From: Cunninghamella blakesleeana
Lineage: Eukaryota > Mucoromycota > Mucoromycetes > Mucorales > Cunninghamellaceae
Direction of reading: 5' to 3'
DNA length: 64,000 nt
NCBI GenBank assembly: GCA_017871115.1
Contig: JAFCIZ010000001.1
Span: 5,679,501 to 5,743,500 of the forward strand
Positions 16,712-55,014 of this stretch are shown here, in pieces (position 1 is the first letter of the stretch; each line of letters starts with the position of its first letter). The notes beneath the pieces are model-generated. The model ran no database searches. It was not told where the DNA came from and saw only the letters and a program-made list of their open reading frames with translations. The translations under genes were made by a program, and so were the position numbers.

Positions 16712-17086
16712 TTAATCATTTAAATTATCTATCATAGATTGATCATTATTTTTTCTTTTAACCCTTGGGTATCTTCGGTGTCGATGAGCGATCAAGGCAT
16801 TTTTTCCGCCAATCAATTGATAGAGAAGTTCATCATGAGTAATCCCTTTTAAAAAATGATAAGCCGTAACGATTTTTTTATCTTCTTCAAATGTTATATG
16901 AGCAGCACTTTCAAAGAGTTCAAAAATCACATATTCAAGTACCGCGGTAAGATATATTGAAGTTAACGAATTGTATTTATAAGTATATCTTTCTTTACGT
17001 AACATGTCTTCGACTTTAGATACAGGAATACATAATCCTGATTTAACGGTTTTACTTCTTTTTTGAGTCTGAGTAGTATCGCCCAT
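16712..17086 (-). CDS. Divergent histone H2A-like protein
   Basis: 124 residues from the ATG at 17084-17086. The histone fold follows canonical H2A in order: SGLCIPVSKVEDMLRKERY (canonical GLQFPVGRIHRLLRKGNY), SIYLTAVLEYVIFELFESA (VYLAAVLEYLTAEILELA), EEDKKIVTAYHFLKGITHDE ([20 protein letters not shown]) and LLYQLIGGK (LNKLLGGV). Differences are large. The N-terminal tail is only about 15 residues, the L1 loop is rewritten, one residue of the D-E-E acidic-patch triplet is Leu (HDELL), and the C-terminal docking segment is replaced by a basic tail HRHRRYPRVKRK. It pairs head to head with an H2B-like gene. The ORF stays open upstream of this ATG to 17305, but that part is hydrophobic and atypical and follows a pyrimidine tract with AG, so the shorter start is preferred. 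It should dimerise with H2B in the nucleus; a role as a specialised variant is inference. Confidence 0.85.
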   Translation of the reverse strand: MGDTTQTQKRSKTVKSGLCIPVSKVEDMLRKERYTYKYNSLTSIYLTAVLEYVIFELFESAAHITFEEDKKIVTAYHFLKGITHDELLYQLIGGKNALIAHRHRRYPRVKRKNNDQSMIDNLND

Positions 17087-17394
17087 AACTAAAAAAAAAA
17101 TTGGTTTGACTATATGTATATAGAAACAAAGAAAATGAGCGAAAAAGAGAAAAAAAAAAGTTGGAATAAAACTACTCTTTATATATACATGAGAACATAA
17201 AAGATAGAATGGTTTTAAAACATCATTTGACAACCTTTTTAATTTTAATAGTGATTTTTTTGAAACCTGCGAATCAACATTATTCAAAGCTATATAAATA
17301 TGCATTTAATCATTTTTTTATTTATCATTTATTATTTCTTTTTCACTTTACTTTTTTCCTTTTTTTAAAAAAAATTTTTTACTGAAAAATAAAA
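17087..17394. promoter_or_regulatory. Bidirectional promoter of the histone-like pair
   Basis: 308 bp separate the two start codons. It holds TATATATAC near 17180 (as read on the + strand), CTATATAAATATGCATTTAAT-like sequence near 17290 with a TATA box, and long T and A tracts. Head-to-head H2A-H2B arrangement with a shared promoter is the usual layout of canonical histone pairs in fungi, so co-expression is likely. Confidence 0.6.
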
Positions 17395-17945
17395 ATGGAT
17401 GAAATTAATCATACAAACGAAGACATGAATAATGATCAAGGTAAAAAATTAATACACATACCTTTTTATTATTATCATTTTAAAAAAAATAACTAAATTA
17501 ATGCCTTATTATTATTTGTTATTTGATAAGAAAAGAAATGACACAACCAAATACTAGTGAAGAAGAAGATATTTCTCTGGATGAAGATGAGCAACATCAA
17601 CAACGTATGAAAAAATCACCCTCCATGTATCCACGTCGCCGGCCAGGATTACCTCGTTATCAACATATAACTTCCTTTCGACATAAATACCCTCAACTTT
17701 TAACATCATTACACCCAACTCTTAAAATATCCTATGATTTAATCAATGTAGTAGATTCAGTGATTAACCATCTTTTTCATCGTATTGCAAGTGAAGCACG
17801 AGAATTAGCAAATTTAAGAAAGCGTCAAACCATCCTTTATCATGATATTGAATCTGCTTGTCGCCTTATCTTTCCTTCTGAAATTTATACTCATGTTAAA
17901 ATAGAAGCAACAAAATCAATTCAACGGTATAAAATTTCGAAATAA
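17395..17945 (+). CDS. Divergent histone H2B-like protein
   Basis: Exon 1 (17395-17440) encodes MDEINHTNEDMNNDQ, and exon 2 starts at 17536 after AAAAG, giving 151 residues. Residues 60-151 follow canonical H2B: LTSLHPTLKISYDLINVVD, SVINHLFHRIASEARELA (canonical FVNDIFERIAGEASRLA), LRKRQTILYHDIESACRLIF ([20 protein letters not shown]), PSEIYTHVKIEATKSIQRY (PGELAKHAVSEGTKAVTKY). The N-terminus is acidic (SEEEDISLDEDEQ) rather than the Lys-rich tail of H2B, followed by a short basic patch PRRRP. The lysine before the final Tyr that is monoubiquitinated in canonical H2B (K120 human, K123 yeast) is Arg here; a lysine two residues later could substitute. It is expected to pair with the neighbouring H2A-like protein. 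Confidence 0.86.
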
Positions 17946-20009: not shown

Positions 20010-21161
20010 ATGAAAGATAGTAATTTAATAATTACTCTACTTCCTGAATTTGGTTGGTCCATTCATGGTACACCTGTCTACGGTCCTAATAGCTGCTTCT
20101 CTGGTGAAATACAATTAAAATTATCCAAACCATCTAAAATAGATCGCGTTCGACTTGTGTTTCAAGGTGTAGAAAGCTTACCTCCTTTTGATGTATCTCC
20201 TGGTGTGGTTCGTGGAAAGAAAAATGCTTTATTTGGTGTCCAACAAACATTATGGGAAAGTAAAGATGGTTCACCTATGCTTGATGCCAACACATATAAC
20301 TATTCCTTCACCTTACAACTACCTAACGTTCAATATCCACCCTCGGTCAGAAATGATTATTATACATGTAATTATAAATTGATTGCCGTGGCTGAATTAC
20401 AATTACAAGATGGATCTTATGAAACACTTTTCATCAATGAAGAGCCTGTTCTATATATGCCTTATGTAGAAACACGACCATTGAAACAACCATCTTTAGT
20501 ACAACAACAACAACAACAAACTGATTTAACAGTTTCTACCAAATTCCAATCCTTTGACTATGTAATTGGAGATTCTATACTTGGCTCTATCCAAGTTGAC
20601 TCCTTTATTAATGGCAACAGCAATCAAAATGTATCCGCTTTAATGAAAAAATCAATTGAAGTTTCTCTACGAGTATATCAAACAACAAAAAATTTAATAT
20701 TTGATGATGTATCAGGCAGTACTTGTTTAGTAGCTTATAACAATTATAAATTATATCCTGTCAGCACTGTTACAGTTGATAAAAAGAAATCCAAATTGAC
20801 CTATTCCAGTAATATTGAATTAGATTTACCTTTCGATTTAACACCAACATTTACCTATAGTTCCTTAGCTTCCATGACTTATAGATTATGTATTAGTGTA
20901 AAGCGAAAAGGACCTTTATCCATGTGGGCTGATGAAGTAAATATGGAATATCCTTTAACAGTGGGCACTTTAGGTTATGGTGTTCGTTCTAGTCCTGATT
21001 TACAAGTATACACTTTAGTGGATAAATCAATTGTTCGCCCTACTTTTATGAAATCTCTTGAATATGAAGATGCTTTACCTGTTTACACCTCTGATAAATT
21101 ACCTACTTATAATGATGTATCTACAACAAAAATTTTAACAACTTTGGTTAATCCTATTTGA
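20010..21161 (+). CDS. Arrestin-related protein, paralogue 1
   Basis: Intronless, 383 residues. Two arrestin-like beta-sandwich halves are recognisable: the N-terminal half from GPNSCFSGEIQLKLSKPSKI through DRVRLVFQGVES, ending in YPPSVRNDYYTCNYKLIAVA with VLYMPYVETRPL, and the C-terminal half from DYVIGDSILGSIQVDSFI through LDLPFDLTPTFTYSSLASM and YPLTVGTLGYGV. The tail has EYEDALPVYTSDKLPTYND, with two LPxY motifs resembling the PY motifs that alpha-arrestins use to recruit Rsp5-type (HECT, WW-domain) ubiquitin ligases, though not exact PPxY. It probably adapts plasma-membrane cargo for ubiquitination; cargo is unknown. A paralogue lies 1.45 kb downstream on the same strand. Confidence 0.85.
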   Translation: MKDSNLIITLLPEFGWSIHGTPVYGPNSCFSGEIQLKLSKPSKIDRVRLVFQGVESLPPFDVSPGVVRGKKNALFGVQQTLWESKDGSPMLDANTYNYSFTLQLPNVQYPPSVRNDYYTCNYKLIAVAELQLQDGSYETLFINEEPVLYMPYVETRPLKQPSLVQQQQQQTDLTVSTKFQSFDYVIGDSILGSIQVDSFINGNSNQNVSALMKKSIEVSLRVYQTTKNLIFDDVSGSTCLVAYNNYKLYPVSTVTVDKKKSKLTYSSNIELDLPFDLTPTFTYSSLASMTYRLCISVKRKGPLSMWADEVNMEYPLTVGTLGYGVRSSPDLQVYTLVDKSIVRPTFMKSLEYEDALPVYTSDKLPTYNDVSTTKILTTLVNPI

Positions 21162-22615: not shown

Positions 22616-23972
22616 ATGGATACTTCTAATATACAATTATCTATTAAACTTCAACCAGAATATGGTTGGGCAATTAAAAATACACCCGTATTTGGTCCTT
22701 CGAGTATTGTCTCAGGTACATAAACCATTGATTATTTTAAAAAAAAAAAATAAGCAAACTATCATGACCATCATTGCTAATTTTTTTTTAAAAAAAATAA
22801 TATAAAATTAAATAGGTCATGTCGATTTACAAATATTAAATCAAGAAATTTTATCTAGAATAGATAAAATAAGAATTGTTTTTCATGGATCTGAGAGAAT
22901 GATGAATATCAAAACAGGCTCTTTGATCAAAAGAAAGCAATTCTTTGGTACTCAAAGAATCATTTGGGACAGTAAACGTCCACAAAAAGATTTAACAGTC
23001 ATGAATAAATATTCTTTCCCTTTTATCATTCAATTACCTAACGTACAATTCCCTCCTTCTATGGATTATCCTCATTACAAATGCTACTATATGGTTTCTG
23101 TTTATATTGACGAAATCGAAAATCATACCAATACAAGAACAAGTATCAACCCAAAAGAAACTTTACAAGAATATAACCAGCCTATCATTTTTATGCCTTT
23201 TATTGAAACTTGTCTTTTTAAAACACCTTTAATTCAATCTATTCCTCCAAAATCTAAAAAAAATAATAAAAAAGACCACCATCAACAACAGCAACCTATT
23301 AAATTATTAACACATGCTTTGGATTATGTTCCCGGTGACTCAATTAAACTGGACGTGACAATTCCTGATTATTTTTACCAATCCAATAATAACAATGACT
23401 CATCTACTACAACCTGTGCATTTTCTTCCATGTCTCTTACTTTAACCCAAATAGTAAAAAGTTCAAATCAAGTCCATCAATCTACTGTTTCTACTTTGAA
23501 AATCCCATTATTATCATTACAATCCTCCTCACTTTCATCTTCCACTTCGTCTTTTAACCCATTAAAACAACAAATAGAACTTCCACTTTCGTCCGATTTA
23601 ACGCCCACTATTACTTATAGCGATGTCATTTCTGTGAACTATTCCTTACATGTACAATTCCATGAAAATAAATTAAAATTGTCTTCCTTTTTTTCATCCT
23701 CTTCATCCGATCATTATCAATTAACCTTACCCATTCGTATTGGTACCTTGGGTTATGGCATTCGTCCATCTGAAGAATTACAAGTATATTCTATTTTTAG
23801 AACCTCGTTTGAAAATCAAGAAAACGATCCAAGACCTTCTCTACCTAATCCTACTTTTTTACAAAACGTTGAATATGAAGATGCTTTACCAGTATATGAA
23901 GTAGACCCACAATTACCTTCTTATGACTCTTTTATTTCAAACCACTCTCCCATTCCTTCTTATGTTAATTAA
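22616..23972 (+). CDS. Arrestin-related protein, paralogue 2
   Basis: Two exons (22616-22715 and 22816-23972) give about 418 residues. It aligns along its whole length with the gene at 20010: PEYGWAIKNTPVFGPSSIVSG versus PEFGWSIHGTPVYGPNSCFSG (each 21 residues with a shared GW..TPV.GP core), FFGTQRIIWDSK, QLPNVQFPP, PIIFMPFIETC, LPSDLTPTITYSDV-like segment, PIRIGTLGYGIRPSEELQVY and NVEYEDALPVY. The tail holds LPVY, LPSY and IPSY, again degenerate PY-type motifs. Between the two lobes it carries a His/Gln/Lys-rich linker and Ser-rich loops absent from paralogue 1. It is a tandem duplicate that has diverged strongly and gained an intron or kept one lost by its neighbour. Confidence 0.84.
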
Positions 23973-54402: not shown

Positions 54403-55014
54403 TTAACATGTCATAAGACCTCCTCTAGCTTTTTCATTTTGTTCATGCCATCCTTGAATAATCTTTGTATCAAATAAGTAATTTTCAACAGGACCTACAG
54501 TGACATAAGTCCATTTATAACCTTCCCAACATCTATAAGGGGCCTTTGTTCCTGCACCTTTAGTAACGACTTGTCCAGCACCAGAAATAGTATGTACAGA
54601 CATTTTCCAATTATAATCTTCACTATATTTATCAATAACATCAGTTAAGCCTTTAAATGATAATCCATAATTATCTGCGGTATTAATAGCATCATGAACC
54701 TTTTGAGCAAAATTAGGATAATCAGTACCACCATTCATTTGAGAAAAACAACTTTTATCGGGAACAATAAATATAAAGGTATCTCTATAACTCTTGGGAT
54801 TAAATTGAATTTCTTTAAGTTTGGAATGATATGGCCATCTTTTTGAATAATGATTCACCAAAGGTCTATCAACTTGATTCCATTTCTTAAGAGCACTATA
54901 AACTTTATACAATTGGCCAAATCCACTAAAAACAGAAGAAAACCCTATGGCATTTACTTGACTAAACATGATAGTAAATAATACTAGAACAAAAACAACC
55001 TTTTGTCGTAACAT
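54403..55014 (-). CDS. Small secreted protein, unrecognised family
   Basis: Intronless gene for 203 residues. MLRQKVVFVLVLFTIMFSQV followed by NA is a strong signal peptide with probable cleavage after VNA. The mature part is well-mixed, folded-looking sequence, with no repeats or further membrane segment: KKWNQVDRPLVNHYSKRWPY, YRDTFIFIVPDKSC, YRCWEGYKWTYVTVGPVENY, and an end RGGLMTC. It has only three cysteines, two near the ends and one central. I recognise no family. It sits alone in a gene-poor, repeat-rich stretch, the common setting of lineage-specific secreted proteins, and is flanked by two copies of repeat family F3. Function unknown; a role in wall or host interaction would be guesswork. 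Confidence 0.72.
   Translation of the reverse strand: MLRQKVVFVLVLFTIMFSQVNAIGFSSVFSGFGQLYKVYSALKKWNQVDRPLVNHYSKRWPYHSKLKEIQFNPKSYRDTFIFIVPDKSCFSQMNGGTDYPNFAQKVHDAINTADNYGLSFKGLTDVIDKYSEDYNWKMSVHTISGAGQVVTKGAGTKAPYRCWEGYKWTYVTVGPVENYLFDTKIIQGWHEQNEKARGGLMTC

Follow-up and report, generated by a model that had tools for sequence, protein, structure and literature searches.

A window of 64,000 nucleotides (contig C1, positions 5,679,501-5,743,500; the genome searched was a 31.9-Mb assembly of 12 contigs) carries at 16712-17945 a head-to-head pair of strongly divergent histone genes, an H2A paralogue on the minus strand and an H2B paralogue on the plus strand. By sequence the two are clearly homologous to H2A and H2B, and they are accompanied elsewhere in the genome by normal core histones. 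As an explanation we put forward, at about an even balance of probability, that a canonical H2A-H2B pair was duplicated, kept as a unit, strongly diverged and brought under constraint, and that it now encodes a dedicated variant dimer. The sequence-only reading had described these as divergently paired H2A-like and H2B-like genes with 308 base pairs (bp) between their starts; the coordinates and the spacing proved correct on measurement, and both frames are open.

Histone identity and the canonical complement

The H2B variant was recognised by the Pfam Histone profile (E = 6.9e-7, 30.0 bits for a cut-off of 26.4) and emerged as the third match when the genome was searched with canonical H2B (41% identity, E = 4e-14), with homology extending over the fold and the alpha-C segment. 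The H2A variant scored under the same cut-off (E = 0.052, 14.2 bits), so that the proposed search with histone profiles succeeded for the H2B partner but not for the H2A partner. For comparison we used four protein sequences from two Cunninghamella echinulata data sets (P0001 and P0002 for the H2B variant, P0003 and P0004 for the H2A variant), and a Pfam search with P0003, carried to E = 0.1, returned zero matches. Over the fold, homology to H2A was evident from direct comparisons: the other matches of the H2A variant in its own genome were the two canonical H2A (30%, E = 3e-8) and H2A.Z (E = 0.0075), and P0003 matched H2A chains among PDB sequences (2.9e-10, best 60 of 209 matches). P0001 matched a tandem H2B chain at 5.6e-29, followed by matches at 9.7e-15 and weaker (best 60 of 189); within the same sets, the PDB matches of P0001 and P0003 were H2B and H2A chains, one odd label excepted. 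Searched back against the genome, P0001 recovered the window gene and two canonical H2B, with nothing further to E = 1. Aligned to their own canonical counterparts, the H2B variant scored 171 and the H2A variant, from FPVG onward, 104, the highest of 300 shuffles reaching 46 for each, and chance similarity is thereby ruled out.

Normal histones are present in the genome as H2A and H2B at two loci each, together with H2A.Z, H3 and H4. Clusters on contigs C5 and C6 each combine a head-to-head H2A-H2B pair with H3 and H4, and these canonical pairs show the same divergent order as the variant pair, with start-to-start gaps of 638 and 607 bp, in line with the earlier statement that canonical pairs are divergent too. 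The clusters with all four core histones span C5:630323-633987 and C6:462605-467738. One extra H3 lies on C1, and another, split by an intron, on C6, which also holds the single H2A.Z. The objection that the variants might be the only H2A and H2B of the organism, raised as a possible refutation, therefore fails, the canonical copies on C5 and C6 ruling it out. Because normal H2A, H2B, H2A.Z, H3 and H4 occur elsewhere, the window genes are extra histones, and duplication of a pair would be their simplest origin. The genome search ran exon by exon and scored the best candidates only; it gave no further significant divergent H2A or H2B and no CENP-A-like H3, both of which are weak negatives given this procedure. 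The sole odd H3-like match was weak (29%, E = 0.22) and lay at C8:404037-404342, within an open frame of 612 amino acids.

Residue changes and comparison with known histone classes

The variants align without gaps to the folds of their own canonical histones, with 26 of 81 positions identical in H2A and 33 of 77 in H2B. The strong divergence noted from the sequence is therefore real, but it is not mostly confined to the regions outside the fold core, as had been suggested, since most fold positions differ as well. Within the fold, 53 of 66 hydrophobic positions retained their class, as did 10 of 14 acidic and 13 of 24 basic ones (basic versus hydrophobic, P = 0.03). The net charge of the H2A fold falls from +6 in the canonical protein to -2 in the variant, and that of the whole proteins from +12 to +5 for H2A and from +14 to -1 for H2B, the isoelectric point of the H2B variant being 6.75 versus 10.1.

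Individual positions were read from lists of DNA-contact, acidic-patch and H2B K120 residues of nucleosome structures, which we assume to apply here. By these lists, 7 of 13 basic DNA-facing positions are still basic in the H2A variant and 5 of 9 in the H2B variant. H2A R32, R71, K74, R77, R81 and R88 have become D, F, D, I, Y and T, and the six sites are non-basic in both variant lineages compared. Seven of the eight acidic-patch residues are retained (five of six in H2A, where E92 is replaced by Leu), and loop 1 is altered in the pair. The H2B lysine that is ubiquitylated in canonical histones (human K120) is Arg in the window and in P0002; this residue, R146, is invariant across the three H2B-variant sequences. 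The H2A docking segment (IAQGGVLPNI...LLP) is replaced by KNALIAHRHRRYPRVKRKNN, a basic and unrelated tail, and the local alignment of the H2A variant to its own H2A stops short of this segment. The protein is best described as H2A-derived and not as a canonical H2A. The tail of the H2B variant is acidic instead of basic, with 14 acidic residues and 1 basic among the first 40, as are those of its relatives (13 and 1 of 40 in P0001, 9 and 1 of 38 in P0002). Unlike the preceding tail, the stretch YPRRRPGLPR (17628-17657, residues 47-56) is invariant in all three sequences, and may be the portion of the tail that contacts DNA or a chaperone.

These changes bear on the main rival explanation, that the two proteins form a histone-fold dimer working outside the nucleosome, as a chromatin-complex subunit or an acidic chaperone-like factor, which we regard as possible but unlikely. 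The histone fold is used in this way by the NF-YB/NF-YC and POLE3/POLE4 dimers. The acidic H2B tail, the strongly lowered net charge, the missing docking segment and the replacement of several DNA-contacting residues in H2A would all suit such a role, and in the genome search the H2B variant barely passed the Pfam CBFD_NFYB_HMF profile (21.5 bits, cut-off 21.4). However, this pass says little, as canonical H2B (30.1) and H2A.Z (22.0) pass the profile too and further matches to it sit elsewhere in the genome. Moreover, both proteins are H2A and H2B by sequence, and the Histone profile outscores CBFD_NFYB_HMF for the H2B variant (30.0 versus 20.5 bits) as well as, narrowly, for the H2A variant (14.2 versus 13.2, under both cut-offs), which is not the pattern of an NF-YB/NF-YC-type protein. 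The retained acidic patch and the basic stretch ahead of the H2B fold also favour a nucleosomal surface.

Membership of two known H2A classes was ruled out. The H2A.Z signature LEYLTAEVLELAGNA (PMC12459048) reads LEYVIFELFESAAHI in the H2A variant, whose local score is higher to its own H2A (104) than to its own H2A.Z exon (85). H2A.X is excluded by the lack of a C-terminal SQ[DE]-hydrophobic motif, the variant ending in SMIDNLND whereas the canonical H2A of the genome ends in ASQEI. Relative to the canonical pairs on C5 and C6, the variant pair is alike in gene order, orientation, ungapped fold and most hydrophobic and acidic-patch positions, but its intergenic region is about half as long, its H2B tail is acidic, the docking and SQ motifs are missing and codon adaptation is lower.

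Two known systems come closest to the window pair: the short H2As of mammals, together with testis H2B, and the nucleosomes of apicomplexans and trypanosomatids in which both H2A and H2B are variants. Short H2As are also characterised by a shortened DNA wrap and testis expression. The short H2As (H2A.B, H2A.L, H2A.P, H2A.Q) resemble the H2A variant in strong divergence and an altered docking segment, and H2A.L works with TH2B (PMC3380720, PMC8015243); their acidic patch is smaller, however (PMC8015243), whereas the H2A variant keeps five of six residues. Apicomplexan H2A.Z-H2B.Z and trypanosomatid H2A.Z-H2B.V form double-variant nucleosomes (PMC3594968, PMC8893665) and, like the window pair, bring an H2A variant together with an H2B variant of its own. 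In contrast to them, the H2A partner in the window is not H2A.Z, which is encoded by a separate gene, and the genes of the window pair are adjacent. For none of these analogues, nor for H2A.Z or H2A.X, did the pair show all of the defining features tested.

Relatives, constraint and expression

The H2B-variant relatives are 97% and 79% identical to the window protein, and those of the H2A variant 99% (P0004, a partial sequence of 84 amino acids) and 85% (P0003). The longest-contig value is identical for both genes within each C. echinulata data set (8,516 and 9,094,544), which indicates that the variant genes are probably neighbours there too. The relatives search depends on shared exact words and misses proteins of about 40% identity, canonical H2Bs not being returned; it yielded 2 hits from 12 candidates, 2 from 2 and 2 from 288. 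The search for the pair in related fungi, as proposed from the sequence, thus recovered both genes in the two C. echinulata data sets but none beyond that species, a weak negative given that distant relatives escape a search of this kind. Restriction of the pair to C. echinulata can accordingly be claimed only weakly.

When the H2B variant of the window is compared with P0002, 22 of 46 residues of the tail differ, against 2 of 20 in the basic stretch behind it and 9 of 85 fold residues (tail versus fold, Fisher P = 3.5e-6), a contrast that shows constraint on the H2B-variant fold. In both window genes the guanine-plus-cytosine (GC) content by codon position (42/32/21 and 50/33/18) follows the usual coding pattern. 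The pseudogene-like pattern named earlier as a possible refutation was not seen, both genes being present in two data sets with a conserved H2B-variant fold and a variable tail. A relic or decaying duplicate lacking any function would fit the high divergence from canonical histones and the low codon adaptation; we consider it improbable, as the frames are open, two further data sets have both proteins annotated, with one H2A copy incomplete, the H2B-variant fold is much more conserved than the tail, and codon-position GC is coding-like.

A foreign origin, with the pair inserted from a virus or another source, appears very improbable. Certain giant viruses, such as Melbournevirus, do encode divergent H2A and H2B (PMC12297534), but when viral contigs were scanned twice, none of the 57 and 79 pattern hits was confirmed. 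These scans were weak, each relying on two short patterns, which for the H2B variant were taken from the variable tail, and viral origin is on this count disfavoured only, no relative having been found in them. Against it stand also the separate genes in place of a doublet, the intron and the splicing factor CWC15 as downstream neighbour.

Codon adaptation of the variants is 0.33 and 0.34, measured against the six canonical histone genes, which as the reference themselves reach 0.75-0.81; 10 open reading frames (ORFs) of the window range over 0.28-0.73, the H2A.Z exon has 0.44 and a non-reference H3 gene 0.61. The values suggest that the variants may be expressed at a low or limited level. In the 308-bp region, TATA-like words are found at 17291 (TATATAAA, plus) and at 17178 (TTTATATA, reverse, pointing to the H2A variant), which may be due to chance given a genomic GC content of about 25%. 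CGYGTT boxes, a motif picked after inspecting the promoters, number 3 and 3 in the canonical H2A-H2B intergenic stretches; the two H3-H4 stretches, each of 859 bp and taken without a located H4 exon 1, have 1 and 0, with 0 upstream of the C1 H3 and 0 before the H2A.Z exon. In the canonical H2A-H2B stretches, one and two of the boxes also read CRCGAAA on the other strand, which we take to resemble yeast SBF sites. Among 465 overlapping AT-rich 650-bp segments taken from the window, none held three CGYGTT boxes. Neither box is present in the 308-bp variant promoter, an expected and uninformative absence given that only 32 of 487 overlapping AT-rich segments of the window had at least one CGYGTT.

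The divergence together with the low codon adaptation would also fit the limited expression of a reproductive or spore histone pair, comparable to mammalian H2A.L-TH2B or lily gametic histones, that remodels spore or zygospore nuclei. This alternative is doubtful, as the H2B variant is not basic, as a compacting histone would presumably need to be; it also overlaps with a dedicated dimer and does not exclude it.

A proposed dedicated variant dimer and its significance

In the explanation put forward above, the two variants would most likely pair with each other through the retained hydrophobic core, and the resulting dimer would associate with normal H3-H4, either in a small share of nucleosomes or at one life stage, with low or stage-limited expression. 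Several DNA-contact arginines of H2A are gone along with its docking segment, loop 1 has changed and the H2B tail has become acidic, so that DNA would be held loosely in nucleosomes of this kind. The retained acidic patch could still anchor patch-binding factors, and Arg at the position of the ubiquitylated H2B lysine would remove the ubiquitylation mark.

Several observations weigh against the dedicated dimer. The retention of basic residues in the fold (13/24) does not differ significantly from that of acidic residues (10/14; P = 0.33), and the H2B fold carries a net charge of +4 in variant and canonical protein alike. For the H2A variant the contrast between the fold (9 of 78 positions differing) and other positions (10 of 46) is less sharp. 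The canonical H4 matches start within the protein, following what looks like an intron, and since canonical H4 thus apparently bears an intron too, the intron of the H2B variant is not diagnostic of a replacement histone. Finally, AlphaFold monomer models built from three-sequence alignments were poor (mean predicted local distance difference test scores of 66.5 and 41.3); the H2B model has residues 76-127 as one continuous helix, and no conclusion was drawn from it.

An obligate variant dimer might also mark one chromosomal place, such as the centromere, chromatin identity being set through H2A-H2B instead of H3. The idea draws on the failure to detect a CENP-A-like H3 in the present search and on a review that reports CENP-A to be lacking in all Mucorales among 55 Mucoromycotina genomes (PMC9089191). 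We consider it improbable, and the apparent restriction to a single species argues against a role common to all Mucorales.

The gene models are given in Table 1. The H2B variant has 151 amino acids and a single intron, and P0001, annotated separately, agrees with it in length and N-terminus. The next gene downstream encodes the splicing factor CWC15 (Pfam, 5.2e-25). Repeats around the locus comprise 4 direct families and 19 inverted pairs, by eye low-complexity and AT-rich. Elsewhere in the window, adjoining ORFs lie at 20010-21161, matching arrestin domains, and at 22899-23972, by eye a diverged tandem copy of the first, and an ORF of 203 amino acids at 54403-55014 has a start that by eye resembles a signal peptide and gave no Pfam match above cut-off.

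Table 1. Positions of the variant histone genes and their shared promoter region in the window
Feature	Position	Strand	Basis or content
Divergent H2A paralogue, coding sequence	16712..17086	-	Open frame, 124 amino acids and stop, intronless
Shared divergent promoter region, 308 bp	17087..17394		Spacing of start codons
Divergent H2B paralogue, exon 1, start of acidic tail	17395..17440	+	Splice model; N-terminus same in P0001
GT-AG intron, 95 nucleotides	17441..17535	+	Joined product has length and N-terminus of P0001
Divergent H2B paralogue, exon 2	17536..17945	+	Remainder of acidic tail, basic stretch, histone fold, alpha-C segment, stop

H2B variants have been described as rarely encountered (PMC3594968). 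Among the titles listed in the open-licence literature, which include few subscription papers, no fungal example of such an H2A-H2B variant pair was found. To our knowledge, it is rarer still for H2A and H2B to diverge together as a single gene unit. A fungus that carries the variant pair beside intact canonical histones would offer a simple system in which to study how much drift an H2A-H2B dimer tolerates while still working, and one in which it can be asked what an acidic-tailed H2B lacking the ubiquitylation lysine does. A second H2A-H2B pair that looks maintained hints at specialised DNA packaging in this organism.
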